From Sulfurovum sp. (GTDB taxonomy: Bacteria; Campylobacterota; Campylobacteria; Campylobacterales; Sulfurovaceae): a DNA stretch of 8,212 bases. The translations under genes and the position numbers were made by a program. Below the pieces are notes generated by a model that worked only from the letters and a program-made list of their open reading frames with translations, ran no database searches and was not told the DNA's origin. The DNA lies in NCBI GenBank assembly GCA_027029065.1, contig JALVGO010000243.1, positions 1 to 8,212 of the forward strand. Reading direction: 5' to 3'. Each line of letters starts with the position of its first letter. Position 1 is the first letter of the stretch. Shown one piece after another: positions 1 through 7,316 of the stretch.

Positions 1-692
1 TATCCAATTTTTTCCTTAAAGTCCGCAAGACAGTTGGTACAGGTTTTAATGGTATTGCTCTCAATAATGGCAAGCAGTGCATCCTGATTGAGAATATGGA
101 GTTTATGGTTCTCTATCTTGATGATCTTCTCTTTTTTCATTTTGGTCAAAATACGTGAAAAGGTTTCCGGTGTCAGGTTGAGGATAGAGGCGATCTCATT
201 GTTTTTCAAACGGTTGAAGATGGTTACTTTCTTCAGCATAAGGTCTGCTACTTTCGCTTCGGACGAAAGGATGGTCTCTTTATGCACCAGTGCCGAAAGC
301 AGACTGATCTTGCCTGTCAGAGATTTGATCAGTTCCAAAGAGAACTGCGGCTGGTTAAGATAGTCATAGAGTTTGTCAAAGTGCAGCAGCCCTATTGTCC
401 CGTCTGTCACAAACTCACAAGTCGCGGGGAAAGGCTCTTTTTCAAAACATGCATATTCGGCAATGAGCCCGGGAGCGGAAAAGCGGTTGATCTGTATCTG
501 GCTTCCTTTGGGAGTGGTTTTGTAGAGTTTGACACTCCCGTGCATCAGAATATGAAGGTACTCGCTCTCATCGCCTTCATAAAAGACAATACTCTCTTTG
601 GTATAGTGTTTAATATGGATCTCTTCTTGAAGCTCTTTAATATAGTTTTGACCCAATGCCGAGAACATCGGCATCTCTTCAAGTGTAAACAT
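1..692 (-). CDS. Crp/Fnr-family transcriptional regulator (DNR/NssR-like), 3' end at window edge
   Basis: A DNA-binding regulator translated from ATG at 692, open for 230 residues to position 3. The last two bases give TA, so the next codon is either a stop or Tyr. Residues about 10-115 form a cyclic-nucleotide-binding-type beta roll (EGDESEYLHILMHGSVKLYK at 39-58). A long dimerisation helix follows, then a winged helix-turn-helix near 163-195. The recognition helix reads TPETFSRILTKM (174-185). Its E176, S179 and R180 reproduce the E-x-x-S-R pattern that FNR and DNR use to read TTGAT half-sites. The N-terminal Cys cluster of FNR is absent, so an oxygen-sensing 4Fe-4S centre is unlikely and an NO- or nitrite-responsive DNR/NssR-type role fits better (inference). 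A CTNC motif sits at 218-221. An AAGGAAGG Shine-Dalgarno lies close upstream of the start. Family certain; signal and regulon inferred from context. Confidence 0.88.
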   Translation of the reverse strand, partial: MFTLEEMPMFSALGQNYIKELQEEIHIKHYTKESIVFYEGDESEYLHILMHGSVKLYKTTPKGSQIQINRFSAPGLIAEYACFEKEPFPATCEFVTDGTIGLLHFDKLYDYLNQPQFSLELIKSLTGKISLLSALVHKETILSSEAKVADLMLKKVTIFNRLKNNEIASILNLTPETFSRILTKMKKEKIIKIENHKLHILNQDALLAIIESNTIKTCTNCLADFKEKIG

Positions 693-774: not shown

Positions 775-1506
775 TTATTTTTCAAACCAACTGAGCTGTT
801 CGCGCAGTTTTACCACTTCTCCTACCACAATCAACGCAGGGGTGGGAAGGTCTTTGGCTTTTTCATAGATATCCTCAAGGGTACCCACCACTGTTTTTTC
901 ATCCGGTGTCGTCCCTTTGCTGATGACGGCAACCGGATGTTCTTTGGGTTTACCGATCTCTATGAGTTTTTTGGTGATCTTGTCAAGGTTGTGCAACCCC
1001 ATCAAAAAGACGATCGTATCGTCGGTTTTGTAATTCTCCCACGGTATCTGAGACTGCGCTTTTTTCGATTCGTGCCCCGTAACCACCCGAAACGATACCG
1101 TCACCCCGCGATGGGTAACTGGGATACCGGCATACTCCGGCACGGCAATGGCAGAGGTGATCCCGGGAATAAACTCAAATGTAATGCCCCGCTCCCGAAG
1201 ATAGATCCCCTCTTCACCGCCACGTCCGAATACAAAAGGGTCTCCACCTTTAAGACGTACCACCATCTCATATTTCAGTGCCGCCTGATAGATAAGTTCA
1301 TTGATCTCCTCCTGCGGCAGTGTATGATGAGAATCCTCCTTGCCGACATAGATAAACTCACACCCGTTCTTTGCCTGCTGCAAAATATCCGGATTTGCCA
1401 GCCTGTCATAGATGATCACATCTGCCTGCTGCACCACACGCAGCGCCTTGACTGTCAGAAGATCGATATCTCCCGGTCCCGCTCCTGTCAAATAAACCTT
1501 ACCCAT
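775..1506 (-). CDS. cobA: Uroporphyrinogen-III C-methyltransferase (SUMT; CobA/NirE)
   Basis: Transfers two methyl groups from S-adenosylmethionine to uroporphyrinogen III, giving precorrin-2, the branch point for siroheme, heme d1 and cobalamin. The 243-residue length is normal for a stand-alone SUMT without the CysG dehydrogenase/ferrochelatase part. Visible family motifs are GAGPGD (8-13), the RLKGGDPFVFGRGGEE block (84-99), IPGITSA (113-119), THRG (131-134) and VFLMG (166-170). The start is ATG at 1506, which has AAAGGA a few bases upstream and gives the standard MGKVYLTGAG opening. An in-frame ATG 14 codons earlier adds an atypical extension and is not favoured. The gene lies downstream of nirJ, so it probably feeds heme d1 synthesis (a NirE role), but supply to siroheme or cobalamin cannot be excluded. 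A GGTGC/GCACC hairpin (1520-1537) precedes the ribosome-binding site. Confidence 0.93.
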   Translation of the reverse strand: MGKVYLTGAGPGDIDLLTVKALRVVQQADVIIYDRLANPDILQQAKNGCEFIYVGKEDSHHTLPQEEINELIYQAALKYEMVVRLKGGDPFVFGRGGEEGIYLRERGITFEFIPGITSAIAVPEYAGIPVTHRGVTVSFRVVTGHESKKAQSQIPWENYKTDDTIVFLMGLHNLDKITKKLIEIGKPKEHPVAVISKGTTPDEKTVVGTLEDIYEKAKDLPTPALIVVGEVVKLREQLSWFEK

Positions 1507-1556
1507 CTCTATCCTTTCCGGTGCGTAATGATGCACCCTACAGCCCAAAATTCAAT

Positions 1557-1591: not shown

Positions 1592-1617
1592 TCACTATTC
1601 ACTCCTCACTATTCACT
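1592..1617. repeat. Short direct repeat spanning the nirJ stop codon
   Basis: TCACTATTCACT occurs twice, at 1592-1603 and 1606-1617, separated by CC. On the minus strand this is a 14-bp unit read as AGTGAATAGTGAGG then AGTGAATAGTGAAG. The first copy read holds the last codons and TAG stop of nirJ. It looks like a small tandem duplication. Confidence 0.7.
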
Positions 1618-2736
1618 TGCTGTTTGCGTATCACGCAAATAGCAAGACGGATCTTCCGCCCACATATCCCCATAGATCGCATACGCCCTGCTACGCGATC
1701 CACCGTTGCAGATATCAAGGTAGCGGCAGTCACTGCATTTTCCGCCAAGTTCACGCGGATGGACACGCAGTTTCTGCAGCATCTGAGTCGGTTCGTTCGT
1801 CCAGATATCCGAGAAATCCTGATGCAGGATATTGCCGATCTTGACAGGGAAAAAAGGATCGGGTTTGACAAAACCTTCGCTGTCGATATTGAGCAGTTTG
1901 CGTCCGGCGGAGTTGCCGCCCCATGCCTTGAGTCTGGCAAGCATCTCTTCGGCATGCTCGGGGTATTTTTGGCTAAAACGGTTATAGAACAAAATTGCAT
2001 CCATCTCCATATTGCCTGTGACGATCTCGATATCCCTGCCGCTCTCGTGATACTCAAAGGCTTTATCGAGGATATACTCTACTGCTGCAATGCGCTGTTC
2101 TTTGCTTAGATCCATCTCCAGATTCTCCAGCCCCCGTCCGCTGTAGACCAGGTGGGAGATGTAGATTTTGGGAATGTTGTGTGCTTCGGCAAGTTCAAAG
2201 ATAAAACGCAGATCATCGTAGGTATCTTTGGTGATCGTAAAGCGGATGCCCACTTTGGTTTTGCCGTAACTGTTGAGCAGGTCGACTGCCTTCATTGACT
2301 CTGTAAACGACCCTTTGAGTCCGCGAAATCTGTCGTGTACTTCAGGTGAGCCGTCGATACTGATACCGATATAGTCAAAGGTATCAAGAATCTTCTCGGC
2401 ATTGGAGGTTTTCACATACAAACCGTTTGTCGAAAGATAGGTAACAATACCAAGCTCCCTACAGCGCGCGGCAATGTCAAACAGGTCTTTGCGGGTCAGC
2501 GGTTCCCCTCCGGAGAAGATCAAAAACTTTACACCGTTTGCTTTAAGCTTTGGAAGTGTCTCCATGACATTTTCGGTCGTTAGGGTATCGACAGCATCGA
2601 GGTCTGCTTTGGAGTAGCAGTGCAGACAGCTGAGGTTGCAGCGGTTGGTAAAGTTCCAAATGGCGATTGATCCGTCAAGCACCCGTGCAGGCTTGCCTTC
2701 GGTGACCGATTTGAGGAGGTTGGAGAGTCTGAACAT
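1609..2736 (-). CDS. nirJ: Heme d1 biosynthesis radical SAM protein NirJ
   Basis: A 375-residue radical SAM/SPASM-type protein. The SAM-cluster cysteines C33, C37 and C40 form CxxxCxxC within NRCNLSCLHCYS, and the SAM-binding SGGEP motif is at 75-79. A C-terminal auxiliary-cluster region has C334, C337, C343 and C365 (CxxC-x5-C-x21-C). The N-terminal MFRLS start and the IWNFTNRCNLSCLHCYS block match the NirJ subfamily as I remember it. NirJ acts on didecarboxysiroheme, removing propionate side chains on the way to heme d1, the cofactor of cytochrome cd1 nitrite reductase. Its start overlaps the cytochrome c stop by one base (TGATG), with AAAAGGGG upstream, so the two are translationally coupled. 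A related AhbD- or PqqE-like enzyme is the main alternative, but a SUMT and c-type cytochrome beside it favour NirJ. No nirS, nirF or nirDLGH is in the window. Confidence 0.85.
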   Translation of the reverse strand: MFRLSNLLKSVTEGKPARVLDGSIAIWNFTNRCNLSCLHCYSKADLDAVDTLTTENVMETLPKLKANGVKFLIFSGGEPLTRKDLFDIAARCRELGIVTYLSTNGLYVKTSNAEKILDTFDYIGISIDGSPEVHDRFRGLKGSFTESMKAVDLLNSYGKTKVGIRFTITKDTYDDLRFIFELAEAHNIPKIYISHLVYSGRGLENLEMDLSKEQRIAAVEYILDKAFEYHESGRDIEIVTGNMEMDAILFYNRFSQKYPEHAEEMLARLKAWGGNSAGRKLLNIDSEGFVKPDPFFPVKIGNILHQDFSDIWTNEPTQMLQKLRVHPRELGGKCSDCRYLDICNGGSRSRAYAIYGDMWAEDPSCYLRDTQTASE

Positions 2737-3059
2737 CAGGATGCCCCTTTTGCTTTGGGTTTGTAGGAGAGGATATAGCGGGTGATCGCTTCAAGCTCCT
2801 CCTCATTAAGTTTAAACGACGGCATCGCATTGCGTTTGTAGCCAAATACTTTGGAGATACTCTCAGGATCGACGATCATCGCCCGTATCTCTTCGGCAGT
2901 GCGTTTTTGGGCAATCTGCACAAACGGCGGACCAAATGCCACAGCAGTCTGGTGGTGGCACCCCCAGCAGTAGGTCTCAAAGACTTTTTTGCCGCTGACT
3001 GCCAAGAGTGGCGAAGCGAGTACCAAACCAATCAAAAAAACTGCTGCAATCCTCTTCAT
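2736..3059 (-). CDS. Periplasmic monoheme class I cytochrome c
   Basis: A 107-residue exported cytochrome. Residues 1-20 form a Sec signal peptide (MKRIAAVFLIGLVLASPLLA), with cleavage probably after A20. The heme is attached at CWGCH (31-35), H35 being the axial ligand. GPPF (43-46) follows the heme site, and M79 in AMPSF is the likely sixth ligand, the usual class I layout. The C-terminal helix contains EEELEAITRYILSY. AAGGATAGAG gives the ribosome-binding site. Coupled with nirJ by a one-base overlap, it could be a NirC/NirM-like protein, carrying electrons to nitrite reductase or helping heme d1 maturation. Sequence alone does not separate those roles from a generic cytochrome c551/c553. 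Confidence 0.85.
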   Translation of the reverse strand: MKRIAAVFLIGLVLASPLLAVSGKKVFETYCWGCHHQTAVAFGPPFVQIAQKRTAEEIRAMIVDPESISKVFGYKRNAMPSFKLNEEELEAITRYILSYKPKAKGAS

Positions 3060-3405: not shown

Positions 3406-3855
3406 CTAAAGATTCCCGTTCATAAAAAGATATAGATTGTCTGCATCTCTAAAGAGAATGCACATCCTGCCCTCTTTTGGCTTACCAAGATCATATGAAC
3501 TGCTCAGATAGATATAGGGCGATTTTTTGATCACAGCTACCATCTCTTCATCTGTCTCGTAAGCTACTTTTGGCAGTTTTTCTACGGTGATTTTCTCCAA
3601 ACGGCAGGTTTGGGAGAGTTTTTCTATGACTTTTTGATCATTGTCTGTTCGTATTGTAAAGAGATGGGGAGAGATAGCACCCTCTTTATAGCGTCTAAGT
3701 GACATCTCTTTGATCTCGCTGTAAGGCTTGCTTCCTACAAGCCGTTCAAATGTCACATCTGTCGTGCCAAGATAATAGGTCCACGCCTCAAGAGAGAGCA
3801 AAACAAGCAACAGAAAGGCTACAATATATACTGCTATATGGCTGCGTTTAAACAT
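3406..3855 (-). CDS. Membrane-anchored hypothetical protein, 149 residues
   Basis: Not recognised. From ATG at 3855 the protein begins MFKRSHIAVYIVAF with one hydrophobic helix at about 7-25. A soluble domain of roughly 120 residues follows, probably outside the membrane, with no heme, iron-sulphur or catalytic motif I can identify. It has two cysteines, C84 and C132. The start is chosen because AAGGAAAA lies at normal spacing upstream. An in-frame ATG 39 codons earlier would run deep into the preceding gene and add a charged extension before the anchor. The start overlaps the preceding stop by 8 bases and the stop is one base from the next ATG, so this is an inner gene of an operon. Its function is unknown; its neighbours suggest a membrane-complex role (inference). 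Confidence 0.78.
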   Translation of the reverse strand: MFKRSHIAVYIVAFLLLVLLSLEAWTYYLGTTDVTFERLVGSKPYSEIKEMSLRRYKEGAISPHLFTIRTDNDQKVIEKLSQTCRLEKITVEKLPKVAYETDEEMVAVIKKSPYIYLSSSYDLGKPKEGRMCILFRDADNLYLFMNGNL

Positions 3856-4360
3856 GGAAAAGTTTTCCTTTCTCTTTTGCCAGACTTTTAAGTCTGCTTT
3901 TTTCTTCAAGTGAACCAAACGCACTTGAGGGAAGATAAAAGGTATTCCCCTGATAGTAAAGCAGTATATCATCTTCTACAGGTACAATACCTTCGATCTT
4001 CTCCCACGGTACAAGGGTACCATTCTGCATAATACCCTCCTTGGAGATCTGAAGTGTGATCTTGCTGTTTTTCAGTGCGGCATTCTCATACGCCTTGAGA
4101 GCCCTTTGATGCACCAGCCACTTTTTGATCACATACCAGTAGAGTAACAGAATCGTTGCCAGCATCAAAAGCCCGACAGAACCTCCCTTGAGGGCAGCCA
4201 CCACACCAAACTGTGCCAGTGCGACAAAAAACCACCCCACATATCTTCGGGCAGAGTTTTTGAACTGGTGGGCGTAGGATCTTGCAAACGCTTTTTCAAA
4301 ATGCTCCCTGTCCCATTGAAAAGAGAGTGTGATCGGTTTAGATATGCTCATCTGACTCAT
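3848..4360 (-). CDS. YcxB-like domain membrane protein
   Basis: A 170-residue protein with two adjacent transmembrane helices (about 41-58 and 61-78) and a C-terminal cytoplasmic domain. The domain pattern ITLQISKEGI (101-110), then VPWEKIEGIVPVEDDILLYY (117-136), then FYLPSSAF (141-148), resembles the YcxB-like family: a beta-rich, PH-like domain behind a membrane hairpin. The biochemical role of that family is not established. ATG at 4360 overlaps the previous gene by 23 bases; a second ATG at 4351 (residue 4) is equally possible, and no ideal Shine-Dalgarno separates them. Together with its neighbours it forms a run of membrane proteins between NO-reductase and heme d1 genes. Domain call moderate, function unknown. 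Confidence 0.78.
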   Translation of the reverse strand: MSQMSISKPITLSFQWDREHFEKAFARSYAHQFKNSARRYVGWFFVALAQFGVVAALKGGSVGLLMLATILLLYWYVIKKWLVHQRALKAYENAALKNSKITLQISKEGIMQNGTLVPWEKIEGIVPVEDDILLYYQGNTFYLPSSAFGSLEEKSRLKSLAKEKGKLFHV

Positions 4361-4943
4361 CGATATAAAGATCTTCCTTCTTGAGATATCCCTCTTTTTC
4401 CAATGCTTCGATCAGTGCCAGGGTTTCACTGTAAAGTGCTTTGTACTCTGCACCATTCACAGCATATTTTTTCTGCTCTTTTTTGGCATACCACCAGGCA
4501 GCGACAATAGAGAGCATAAAAAAGGCATAGATCCACCACTGCCATGCTTTGAGATCCAGCAGTACAATAAAATACTGCACCGAAAAAAGCACAAAAAACT
4601 CTACAGAGAAAATAAGTACCAGTGTAGCACTGTTCTCAAAATCGAGGGTATATTTTTCTATCTCTCTGAGTCTGTCCAAATTGCGGTTGATCTGCGCCGC
4701 TCTCTCTTTGGCTGCTTCATCAATGGTATCAAGGTCAATATTTCTAAGATGGATATTGCTGAGATTGTACTCCACATTCGTCTGCATATAGTCACGAAGA
4801 ATCTGGGGGTCTCTCTGCAACGCCTCATCCAGTTCCTCCTCTGTCGGCTTCTCTTTGCCTATGAGCTTCTGTACATCCTGAAGTACCAGATCATAAAGAC
4901 CGACATGCAAGATCTCGTGCATCATTCTTTTTTTGTTTAGCAC
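4338..4943 (-). CDS. Hypothetical two-helix membrane protein with coiled-coil-like N-terminus, GTG start
   Basis: A 201-residue protein I do not recognise. The start is GTG at 4943, supported by GGGAG six bases upstream; ATG codons at 4925 and 4922 are alternatives with no good ribosome-binding site. Residues 15-100 are polar, charged and largely helical (for example KPTEEELDEALQRD at 32-45 and AAQINRNLDRLREIEKY at 82-98), suggesting a coiled coil. Two transmembrane helices follow at about 106-129 and 134-152, then a charged helical tail to 201. HEILH at residues 9-13 fits HExxH, but at the extreme N-terminus of a non-exported protein it is weak evidence for a metalloprotease. It is the first gene of the five-gene block after the reductase terminator, so a promoter should lie within 4944-5017, although I see only weak candidates. 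Confidence 0.78.
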   Translation of the reverse strand: MLNKKRMMHEILHVGLYDLVLQDVQKLIGKEKPTEEELDEALQRDPQILRDYMQTNVEYNLSNIHLRNIDLDTIDEAAKERAAQINRNLDRLREIEKYTLDFENSATLVLIFSVEFFVLFSVQYFIVLLDLKAWQWWIYAFFMLSIVAAWWYAKKEQKKYAVNGAEYKALYSETLALIEALEKEGYLKKEDLYIDESDEHI

Positions 4944-5017: not shown

Positions 5018-5039
5018 TTACGGGGAGCGATCCCCGTAA
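5018..5039 (-). terminator. Strong hairpin terminator after the NO reductase genes
   Basis: TTACGGGGA (5018-5026) and TCCCCGTAA (5031-5039) form a perfect 9-bp stem closed by a 4-base loop. It begins 10 bases after the TAA of the subunit I gene. On the minus strand it is followed by GATTTCTTG, only moderately T-rich, so efficiency may be less than complete. It separates the reductase genes from the membrane-protein block downstream. Confidence 0.75.
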
Positions 5040-5048
5040 TACAATCAC

Positions 5049-6707
5049 TTACTTTTTCTGAGCAGCTACCACTGAAGGCTGTGGATCGATACCGAACGTC
5101 GCTGTATCATCAGATGCCGGAAGGAAGATACCGATCAGCCCCTTGATACCGACAGACATGATAATGTTGATCATAAACAGTACCCATGCTACCACCATCA
5201 TGATGGCACAGACAGCCGCAAGGATCATAAAGGTCTGATACTCACCATCCATATAGAAGTGGCGTCTGAGCATCCCGTCAAGTCCTGCCATCCCCATAAA
5301 AGCACCCATACCGACACTGCCGATAAGGTGCAGCCAGAAGTGTGCATTGGCAAGCTTCATCGAGTAGAGCTTCGTGTTATTCGTTAACAGCGGCCAGAGA
5401 ACATACACCACACTATAGAGTGTCATGTAAAGTCCGGTCAGAAGTGCAATATGCACATGGGCACCAATGATCCACTGTGTATTGTGCAGTACCCTGTTCA
5501 TCCCCATATCTGCCTGAATGATCGCTGCAGGTACCGCCAGACCAAATCCCATAAGACCTGCGAGGAGGTACTTCAGCTCCATCGTCAGTTTAAGCGGTCT
5601 GGCTTTCCAGAGTGTCATGAGGGTAATAAAGAGTGCCAACCCCTGTGTCAAGAGTTCAAACATCGTTACCATCTCTCCGGAGATCAGCTTCATCATCTCC
5701 GGCTGCCCCTGATCTGCCAAGAGGTGGTGCGACCAGACCATCCATGAGACGACAAGTTCCAAAAGGAGTGCCGCACGTGCCACGTTTTCCATAAAGAGCT
5801 TCTGTCCGGTGATCAGTGTCGCCAGCAAGTACCATGAACCTGCCACATAAATGAGTACCAACCCGTCAGCCACAAGGTCAAGCCCCCACCAGAAGAAGTT
5901 TTTGTAAAGCAGTGCATCGATCGCATGTACATCCCAGGTTGCACCGCCAAGATCTGCAAGCAGATAGACCAGCACAAGAATACCTGCACTGAGAATGACC
6001 AATGCATCAAGGAATGTATCGATTGTTCCTCTAAATATGGCAACTACCGGAAGTGAAAGTGCCGGCTCTTTCGAATAAGGCGGTTTTCCCATCAGTTTGT
6101 GGGCAAGGTTGAGCATTCCGTCGATACCAAAACCGGAGATCAGCAACTCTTTGCTTGTTTTGTTGGCATGTACCCCTACTTTGGCAAAGATCGTAGCATA
6201 GATGTTGTAAATGAAGGCAAGCGTACCTATCATGATCAACGCAACACCGACGATAAAGACAATCCCTCCAACAACATTGAACTGCTCTGTATCGGCAGGC
6301 AGTGGCCAGTAGAGAGTATAGAGCGGCGCATAGTGCCAGATAAATGCTGCAATCCACGCCAAAGCAGAACCGATCGTGATGGTAAACCATACAAAGTTTG
6401 CCAGACCGACACTGTAGAGCGGCTTTTTAGTCAGGAAAGGTATCAGGAACATAAATGCTGCAAATACCAGCTGATAGGTCGATCCAAAAATACCGATGAT
6501 CGGGTGTACCGTCATAATAGAAAAGAAGTGGTCAGGTGAACCGTTGATTGGCGGGATGGAGGGGTTAACCAGTGCCACCCTCATCAAAGTTCCCTCGATC
6601 GATGCCAAACCGTAAAAAAGAAATGACATCACCACAGCACGCAGTGTCACCTTCTGAAGTGCCGTCAACTGTGACGGATTAAAATTGGTGCCTTCTACTA
6701 AACTCAT
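5049..6707 (-). CDS. Heme-copper-superfamily subunit I, gNOR-type nitric oxide reductase catalytic subunit
   Basis: Predicted to reduce 2 NO to N2O and water at a heme b3-FeB site in the inner membrane. The 552 residues hold about a dozen hydrophobic helices. Low-spin heme ligands are H68 (TVHP) and H419; H417 in GAHVH should bind the high-spin heme. H327-H328 (WSHHLL) are metal ligands in helix VII. The helix VI motif of oxygen reductases, HPEVY, is replaced by DLVAD (277-281): the metal-ligand His becomes D277 and the cross-linked Tyr becomes D281. No Tyr replaces it in helix VII as in cbb3 oxidases, which argues against oxygen reduction. This pattern fits the gNOR family described in Sulfurimonas (from memory). 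Automatic annotation would probably say cytochrome c oxidase subunit I. ATG at 6707 is chosen over one 8 codons earlier because AAAGGAG lies at ideal spacing; it is one base after the subunit II stop (TAGGATG). Confidence 0.82.
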   Translation of the reverse strand: MSLVEGTNFNPSQLTALQKVTLRAVVMSFLFYGLASIEGTLMRVALVNPSIPPINGSPDHFFSIMTVHPIIGIFGSTYQLVFAAFMFLIPFLTKKPLYSVGLANFVWFTITIGSALAWIAAFIWHYAPLYTLYWPLPADTEQFNVVGGIVFIVGVALIMIGTLAFIYNIYATIFAKVGVHANKTSKELLISGFGIDGMLNLAHKLMGKPPYSKEPALSLPVVAIFRGTIDTFLDALVILSAGILVLVYLLADLGGATWDVHAIDALLYKNFFWWGLDLVADGLVLIYVAGSWYLLATLITGQKLFMENVARAALLLELVVSWMVWSHHLLADQGQPEMMKLISGEMVTMFELLTQGLALFITLMTLWKARPLKLTMELKYLLAGLMGFGLAVPAAIIQADMGMNRVLHNTQWIIGAHVHIALLTGLYMTLYSVVYVLWPLLTNNTKLYSMKLANAHFWLHLIGSVGMGAFMGMAGLDGMLRRHFYMDGEYQTFMILAAVCAIMMVVAWVLFMINIIMSVGIKGLIGIFLPASDDTATFGIDPQPSVVAAQKK

Positions 6708-6708
6708 C

Positions 6709-7281
6709 CTACGCTCCTTTCTTGTTGTCACATCCTGTCACAACAACCGCTTTTTTTGCAAACATACTATTTCCTTCCGGTCCGGAATACTCTGTCGATC
6801 TTACATCAAACTCACCACATTCGTTAAATGTCCAGAGCAGATCGTTTCTCGTTCCCGGATTGACCTGCATCTGCGAGACCATACTGCCATCCTGGCGGAA
6901 AAGACCGAAGCCATAGACCAGATCGGAACTGTGCGCATCAAAGAGCACCTTCTCTCCCTTTTTGATCTCCATCTTTTCAGGCAGATCAAACTTGTGGTGC
7001 GCCATTTTGATCTCAAACGTTTTATCCGGTGTGATGTGGTGTCTCATAATATCCTCAGACACCCATGGAATGGTGTTGTAGGTAAAGATATGGTGTCCCA
7101 CTCCCATCGCTACCAAAAACCCTATATAAAGATAGAATGGTATACGAACAAGCGGCTTGGCTTTCGTTTCACGTGTCAGATTATACGCGAACCATGCAAT
7201 GACTGAAATAATAAGCATTGCATAGACTGTATATGCAACGTTATGAAATTTGAGCAGCTCAACTGAAGTTGCAAAAGTCAT
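6709..7281 (-). CDS. Subunit II of the gNOR-type reductase, cupredoxin domain lacking CuA ligands
   Basis: A 190-residue membrane-anchored partner of the catalytic subunit. It has two N-terminal helices (about 15-33 and 47-67) and a periplasmic cupredoxin domain (about 85-185), the layout of oxidase subunit II. The CuA centre is lost. The first ligand His, normally in a DVxHSF context, is Y123 in DLVYGF. The CxExCGxxHxxM loop reads S-T-E-Y-S-G-P-E-G-N-S-M (162-173), so both Cys are Ser and the His is Gly; only the Glu and Met remain. The subunit therefore should not take electrons from cytochrome c through CuA; quinol or a direct route into subunit I is likelier (inference). The start ATG at 7281 follows AAGGAGG, an almost perfect Shine-Dalgarno. 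The stop is one base from the subunit I start, so the two are coupled. Confidence 0.83.
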   Translation of the reverse strand: MTFATSVELLKFHNVAYTVYAMLIISVIAWFAYNLTRETKAKPLVRIPFYLYIGFLVAMGVGHHIFTYNTIPWVSEDIMRHHITPDKTFEIKMAHHKFDLPEKMEIKKGEKVLFDAHSSDLVYGFGLFRQDGSMVSQMQVNPGTRNDLLWTFNECGEFDVRSTEYSGPEGNSMFAKKAVVVTGCDNKKGA

Positions 7282-7310: not shown

Positions 7311-7316
7311 ATTATA
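7311..7316 (-). promoter_or_regulatory. -10 box of the NO reductase operon
   Basis: TATAAT on the minus strand, an exact consensus. Transcription would start near 7303-7304, leaving a leader of a little over 20 bases with the AAGGAGG site before the ATG at 7281. The -35 position is occupied by the FNR-type box rather than a TTGACA hexamer, the arrangement expected of an activator-dependent class II promoter. Confidence 0.68.

Follow-up and report, generated by a model that had tools for sequence, protein, structure and literature searches.

The minus strand of the window (the whole stretch of DNA analysed here, 8,212 nucleotides) carries two adjacent genes, norH and norG, whose products very probably form a two-subunit nitric oxide (NO) reductase of the gNOR type. 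Judged from its sequence, the locus would belong to a host near Sulfurovum and Sulfurimonas, probably a denitrifying member of the Campylobacterota, and the enzyme would convert NO to N2O at a site where two His and one Asp (D277) hold the metal and a second Asp (D281) stands in for the Tyr of oxygen reductases. Since both of these odd residues are already in print, the exchange of the His ligand for Asp in the case of gNOR by inference, the NorG of the window appears as a further member of a proposed NO reductase family with a known feature; the finding is right, but it is not new. Its interest lies in the open biochemistry of gNOR, in a companion gene and in a promoter box. If gNOR acts as proposed, NO is consumed and N2O made by bacteria that are common at vents and in sulfidic waters, and the cytochrome oxidase label that gNOR carries in databases makes NO reduction there easy to under-count. 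An Asp ligand at a heme/non-heme metal site would also provide a natural test of the choice between NO and O2 in heme-copper enzymes, while the companion gene and the FNR-type box offer direct handles on expression of the active enzyme and on the time of its use.

Active site and subunits of NorHG

The norG reading frame opens with an ATG at 6707 and runs for 552 residues on the minus strand (Table 1). The coordinates given in a preliminary description of this DNA, 5049-6707, are exact, the strand being minus; frame 1 of the plus strand over the same span contains several stops. The norH stop codon ends one base ahead of the norG start, and NorH precedes NorG in 109 of 110 loci.

Table 1. Features of the norHG locus and its surroundings in the window.
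Feature	Position	Strand	Basis
NorG, putative gNOR catalytic subunit I, 552 aa	5049..6707	minus	translation, PF00115 E=3e-51, tree
Codon of D277, likely helix VI metal-ligand His place	5877..5879	minus	alignment and profiles
Codon of D281, probable place of the cross-linked Tyr	5865..5867	minus	alignment and profiles
Codons of H327-H328, presumed remaining two metal ligands	5724..5729	minus	alignment, profiles, superfamily knowledge
Codons of H417 (presumed high-spin heme ligand) to H419 (presumed low-spin heme ligand)	5451..5459	minus	alignment, profiles, superfamily knowledge
Codon of H68, presumed second low-spin heme ligand	6504..6506	minus	alignment, small profiles, superfamily knowledge
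NorH, putative subunit II of 190 aa with a cupredoxin-like domain and two hydrophobic stretches	6709..7281	minus	CuA-domain chain match, hydropathy
gNOR companion, 201 aa membrane protein, GTG start	4338..4943	minus	profile search, linkage
FNR/DNR-type box TTGAC-N4-ATCAA	7338..7351	minus	centre 63 nt before norH start
TATAAT	7311..7316	minus	centre 31 nt from box centre
Hairpin, 9 pairs, between norG and companion gene	5018..5039	minus	no clean T run
NirJ-like radical SAM protein (heme d1 biosynthesis)	1609..2736	minus	TIGR04051 393 bits, below cut-off of 515
Uroporphyrinogen-III C-methyltransferase (CobA/SUMT)	775..1548	minus	TIGR01469 312 bits, cut-off 185
Small c-type cytochrome	2736..3059	minus	PF13442
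Crp/Fnr-family regulator, runs to window edge	3..692	minus	domain matches
Two overlapping frames 3' of companion gene (YcxB-like protein, one-helix protein)	3406-4360	minus	

Translation places the stretch D277-L-V-A-D281, together with H68, H327, H328, H417 and H419, at precisely the residue numbers reported for them earlier. These seven residues (the two Asp and the five His) are invariant in all 116 rows of an alignment composed of the query and the best frame of more than 480 residues from each locus (loci numbered up to 140), in which some genomes were fetched repeatedly; they are equally invariant in the 103 rows that are distinct over residues 10-530, among which identity falls as low as 59%. 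The same residues recur in 77 of 77 sequences of a second set, for which 76 of the 240 listed protein matches were aligned with the query. Given this invariance, the occurrence of D277 and D281 alongside the His set is not a matter of chance. The invariance of all heme ligands and of the two metal His is also what would be expected of a catalyst, and for this reason we regard it as very improbable that NorHG handles NO in some other way, for example as a dismutase or a sensor, without forming N2O, even though we know of no activity for any gNOR and, to our knowledge, the gNOR site differs from that of every purified NOR.

The preliminary description had further stated that neither helix VI nor helix VII offers a Tyr. 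With helix bounds taken from the predicted model (helix VI, 260-300; helix VII, 307-330), this statement stands for helix VII, which has none, and has to be dropped for helix VI, which contains Y268, Y287 and Y293. None of these three occupies the ligand+4 place; Y268 and Y293 are invariant, and Y287 is replaced by Phe in 6 of the 103 distinct sequences. In C-type oxygen reductases the cross-linkable Tyr sits in helix VII, and in NorG no Tyr of the cross-linkable kind was found there or at the ligand+4 place of helix VI.

Simple alignments, and likewise the printed PDB alignment, anchor on a Gly and move D277 by one residue. A small gNOR profile sets D277 opposite the ligand His in one of the four comparisons that cover helix VI, the B-type one, where D281 also falls on the Tyr; in the other three (A-type, Q-type and one N-type row) the register is shifted and D277 lies one residue off the His, which counts against our reading, and the C-type and cNOR comparisons stop short of helix VI. 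Deep profiles were also used, built on the gNOR side from the query, 16 divergent loci and 120 of the 240 listed proteins. In 14 of their 15 runs D277 came to stand opposite the ligand His; D281 stood opposite the Tyr in 8, a gap in 6 and a His in 1. The runs were five overlapping reference sets under three settings each and are not independent of one another. Ungapped scoring favoured no register for D277, and the AlphaFold2 model of NorG (pTM 0.84) has a mean pLDDT of only 51-56 over residues 261-290. In the register of the deep profiles, comparison with the other families bears out the earlier reading of Asp at the place of the ligand His: D277 is likely the third metal ligand and D281 likely the replacement of the Tyr.

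NorH matches chains of CuA domains (best E=8e-6), and as such provides a cupredoxin-type subunit II adjoining subunit I, an arrangement that PMC8756737 describes for sNOR, gNOR and eNOR. All 104 distinct NorH sequences lack the two Cys and the two His of CuA. Across the 110 rows from which these derive, the first His place is always Tyr and the second always Gly, the first Cys place is Ser (108) or Thr (2), the second is Ser (93) or Ala (17), and the CuA Met is kept in 108. With these residues NorH cannot form a CuA site of the known kind, which fits quinol as the electron donor, most likely menaquinol. Electrons would then reach a low-spin heme, which we take from superfamily knowledge to be ligated by H68 and H419, and from there a high-spin heme (presumably on H417) paired with a putative non-heme metal; the latter would be held by H327, H328 and D277, with D277 replacing the third His. 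Because the second acid, D281, would stand where oxygen reductases cross-link their Tyr, the site seems suited to coupling two NO to N2O rather than to splitting O2.

Placement of NorG among heme-copper enzymes

Of the NO reductases that PMC11388526 names, cNOR, qNOR, bNOR and eNOR rank as characterised there, and the status of sNOR, gNOR and nNOR is that of proposed enzymes, in agreement with the remark of the preliminary description that gNOR has seen little biochemistry. Table A4 of PMC8756737 places gNOR in Sulfurimonas, Sulfurovum and Persephonella and gives it an active-site Asp; by description in the same paper, sNOR and CuANOR/bNOR have an Asn in the active site, eNOR a Gln and gNOR an Asp, and gNOR is said there to have no proton channel. 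PMC8906906, where the genes are called norGH, presents gNOR as quinone-oxidising and non-electrogenic. PMC3475470 reports that the Tyr gives way in NORs to Glu, Gln, Asp or Asn, and that certain NOR types have an Asp instead of one of the His that ligate the metal; it cites Hemp and Gennis 2008 as well as Sievert 2008 for this. The second of these, cited for the ligand change, is the Sulfurimonas denitrificans genome paper, and through this citation we infer that gNOR is among the types meant. For gNOR, the literature refers to Hemp and Gennis 2008, Sievert 2008 and Murali 2024.

The window proteins have the host lineage, the Asp at the Tyr place and the cupredoxin-type subunit II in common with gNOR as published, and the His-to-Asp ligand change is one reported for certain NOR types; no feature that would distinguish NorG or NorH from published gNOR was found. 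NorG is 81% identical to a protein of Sulfurovum sp. NBC37-1. In a tree of 34 rows (9 gNOR, 8 A, 4 B, 4 C, 5 cNOR, 3 of a Gln-type group and 1 Asn-type), which contains no named sNOR, eNOR, bNOR or nNOR rows and has several long branches, the gNOR rows form a single clade with support of 100/100, and this clade lies outside the A, B and C oxidase groups and the cNOR group. Host lineage, active-site Asp, clade and the close Sulfurovum relative together uphold the original assignment to gNOR.

The cNOR (NorBC) belongs to the same superfamily and probably catalyses the same reaction, but it carries an HLWVE motif in helix VI, with a His ligand and a Glu, forms a clade apart from gNOR, and has a cytochrome c gene adjoining where gNOR has the cupredoxin gene; NorG has no HxxxE motif in helix VI and falls outside the cNOR clade. 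The cbb3 CcoN and the ba3 and aa3 oxidases have the fold, the heme ligands and the database names in common with gNOR, whereas their helix VI has a His, followed in the A and B rows by a Tyr at ligand+4, and they form clades of their own. Database entries for gNOR, where a name is given, read cbb3-type oxidase subunit I, cytochrome c oxidase subunit 1 or polypeptide I, just the misannotation that had been foreseen. Four oxidase models match NorG, all with scores far short of their cut-offs.

These shared properties raise the alternative that NorHG is itself an oxygen reductase, a quinol oxidase with an unusual site. The PF00115 fold would allow it, the PDB matches listed for the model are nearly all oxidases (one NO reductase, 4xyd, appears in one listing of 50 rows and none so named in the other 50), and a role as a high-affinity oxidase has been argued to be possible for sNOR in PMC6967387. 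We nevertheless consider an oxygen reductase unlikely, as an Asp lies opposite the Tyr in 103 of 103 distinct sequences, gNOR stands outside the oxidase clades, and 43 of the 45 genomes with gNOR hold a further PF00115 match that resembles CcoN in size and score.

These 45 genomes were found among 397 sampled Campylobacterota genomes, and the 80 loci kept of 333 from a genome scan are all Campylobacterota by their titles. The family is not confined to this phylum, since the record of one listed gNOR protein (P0235) is labelled Deltaproteobacteria and Persephonella is named in print.

Other unusual heme-copper genes were seen in passing. Two Thermus thermophilus plasmids (L145:2342-4024 and L146:1962-3647) encode a heme-copper-type subunit with Gln at the Tyr place, in which the second His of HFH, a low-spin heme ligand, has become Lys (HFK); a Thermomicrobium relative (L147) retains HFH. 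In both plasmids an Rrf2 gene follows, and in L145 also a DUF542 gene. A Thermomicrobium roseum plasmid (L106:1461-2945) encodes a short subunit I of 494 aa with HTLVN in helix VI, hence Asn at the Tyr place, which adjoins a formate/nitrite transporter gene and is annotated as a cbb3 oxidase.

Denitrification context of gNOR

Taken together, the NirJ-like, CobA-type, small cytochrome c and Crp/Fnr-family genes of the window are indicative of heme d1 and nitrite reduction; CobA/SUMT enzymes supply the precursor for both siroheme and heme d1. Across the sampled genomes, a Cytochrom_D1 match at E<=1e-3 occurs in 41 of 45 genomes with gNOR and 55 of 352 others, and at E<=1e-40 in 40 of 45 and 36 of 352, respectively, counts in which PF02239 (Cytochrom_D1) also takes in NirN and NirF. 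The sampled genomes are related, so that p-values for the co-occurrence of gNOR with cd1-type genes, and with the companion gene described below, are overstated. In one genome (G209), whose NorG is 89% identical to that of the window, a cd1-type gene lies 3.3 kb from NorG. Among 14 genomes viewed that have the two on one contig, five have them within 11 kb and nine at distances from 28 kb to more than 1 Mb. We would expect norHG to be expressed together with, or beside, the reduction of nitrite to NO; the four gNOR genomes (of 45) with no cytochrome cd1 match at E<=1e-3 count against our explanation of the locus.

In most of its genomes gNOR is not the sole candidate NO reductase, because 39 of the 45 hold a further PF00115 match of 461-509 residues, with the size and score of cNOR NorB. 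The count of 39 is based on size and score, and the HLWVE motif was confirmed in the NorB-like genes of all six genomes checked. For S. denitrificans, PMC6682613 names only NorBC as NO reductase. It is conceivable, though we lean towards the opposite view, that NorHG protects the cell from NO and plays no part in energy-yielding denitrification, with cNOR taking the respiratory step. The non-electrogenic character given to gNOR in PMC8906906 and the four genomes with no cd1-type match would suit such a role as well, but the strong link with cytochrome cd1-type genes, including the close physical linkage in G209, argues for participation in denitrification. The two readings are not exclusive, as protection and respiration would use the same chemistry and differ in physiology alone.

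Six gNOR genomes (G130, G136, G151, G234, G277 and G361) have no PF00115 match of cNOR size. Four of them (G130, G151, G234 and G277) also have no cytochrome cd1-type match, and gNOR may serve NO removal there; G136 has no other PF00115 match whatever and may be an incomplete genome.

Promoter box and companion gene

The box upstream of norH, TTGACCAAGATCAA, is the sole TTGA-N6-TCAA in the window, and the TATAAT lies 3' of it at the spacing characteristic of class II FNR/CRP activator promoters (31 nt; Table 1). A sigma-70 scan, which needs a -35 hexamer, did not list this TATAAT. An FNR-type box within 200 nt upstream is present at 73 of 100 loci (70 of 96 distinct), the loci being related and not independent. 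The count started from the window and 109 loci with NorH, of which 10 were dropped, 6 with no Met near the aligned start and 4 with fewer than 120 nt upstream. By comparison, mononucleotide shuffles give 0.7 boxes per 100 loci, and the mean density across the loci is 0.025 per 200 nt. According to PMC6682613, Campylobacterota have no known FNR orthologue, and in S. denitrificans expression appears to be largely constitutive. The boxes suggest that another member of the Crp/Fnr family is in control. A regulator of this type, acting at the box upstream of norH, probably drives expression. The Crp/Fnr-family regulator of the window has no N-terminal Cys cluster and is a possible reader of the box.

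Downstream of norG lies the companion gene, whose product is hydrophobic over residues 102-134 and is predicted to form long helices at 106-128 and 132-183. With a profile of 15 members, the companion was found in 38 of the 397 Campylobacterota genomes: 38 of the 45 with gNOR and none of the 352 without. In all 38 the best match shares the strand of NorG and sits 12-159 nt downstream of it. A second match occurs in two genomes, in tandem in G309 and partial on another contig in G380. Because of this tight linkage and of its absence elsewhere in the sample, the companion is likely a partner of gNOR, and it may be a dedicated subunit or an assembly factor.

In the seven gNOR genomes that lack the companion, NorG is near 61-62% identity, and at the loci of six of them (L131-L136) no companion homologue was found downstream of norG. 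Among the fetched loci, the companion is present in 101 of 110 (93 of 102 with distinct NorG), the misses being L131-L136, L038, L080 and L063. The contigs of L038 and L080 end within 42 nt. L063, a locus outside the deep clade, is a true exception, in which no companion was found in 10 kb of downstream flank. We give even chances to the fuller proposal that most Campylobacterota gNOR are three-gene systems, in which the companion would be a dedicated third subunit or a maturation factor for the His-His-Asp site with a role like that of cNOR NorD/NorQ, and that the deep-branching clade works without it.

The window copy of the companion matches no Pfam or NCBIfam model at cut-off, and no PDB fold stands out for its model (mean pLDDT 88). 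Among the 120 listed of 1482 homologues, none has a name beyond hypothetical protein. The companion does not appear in the gNOR descriptions cited here, which came from a literature search directed at the enzyme and not at this gene.

The hairpin between norG and the companion gene has a poor T run, and attenuation or RNA processing is a possible function for it. Of the two frames 3' of the companion gene, the YcxB-like one (E=5.9e-5, just below cut-off) is found in 69 of 110 loci, and the one-helix protein occurs mainly in close relatives.
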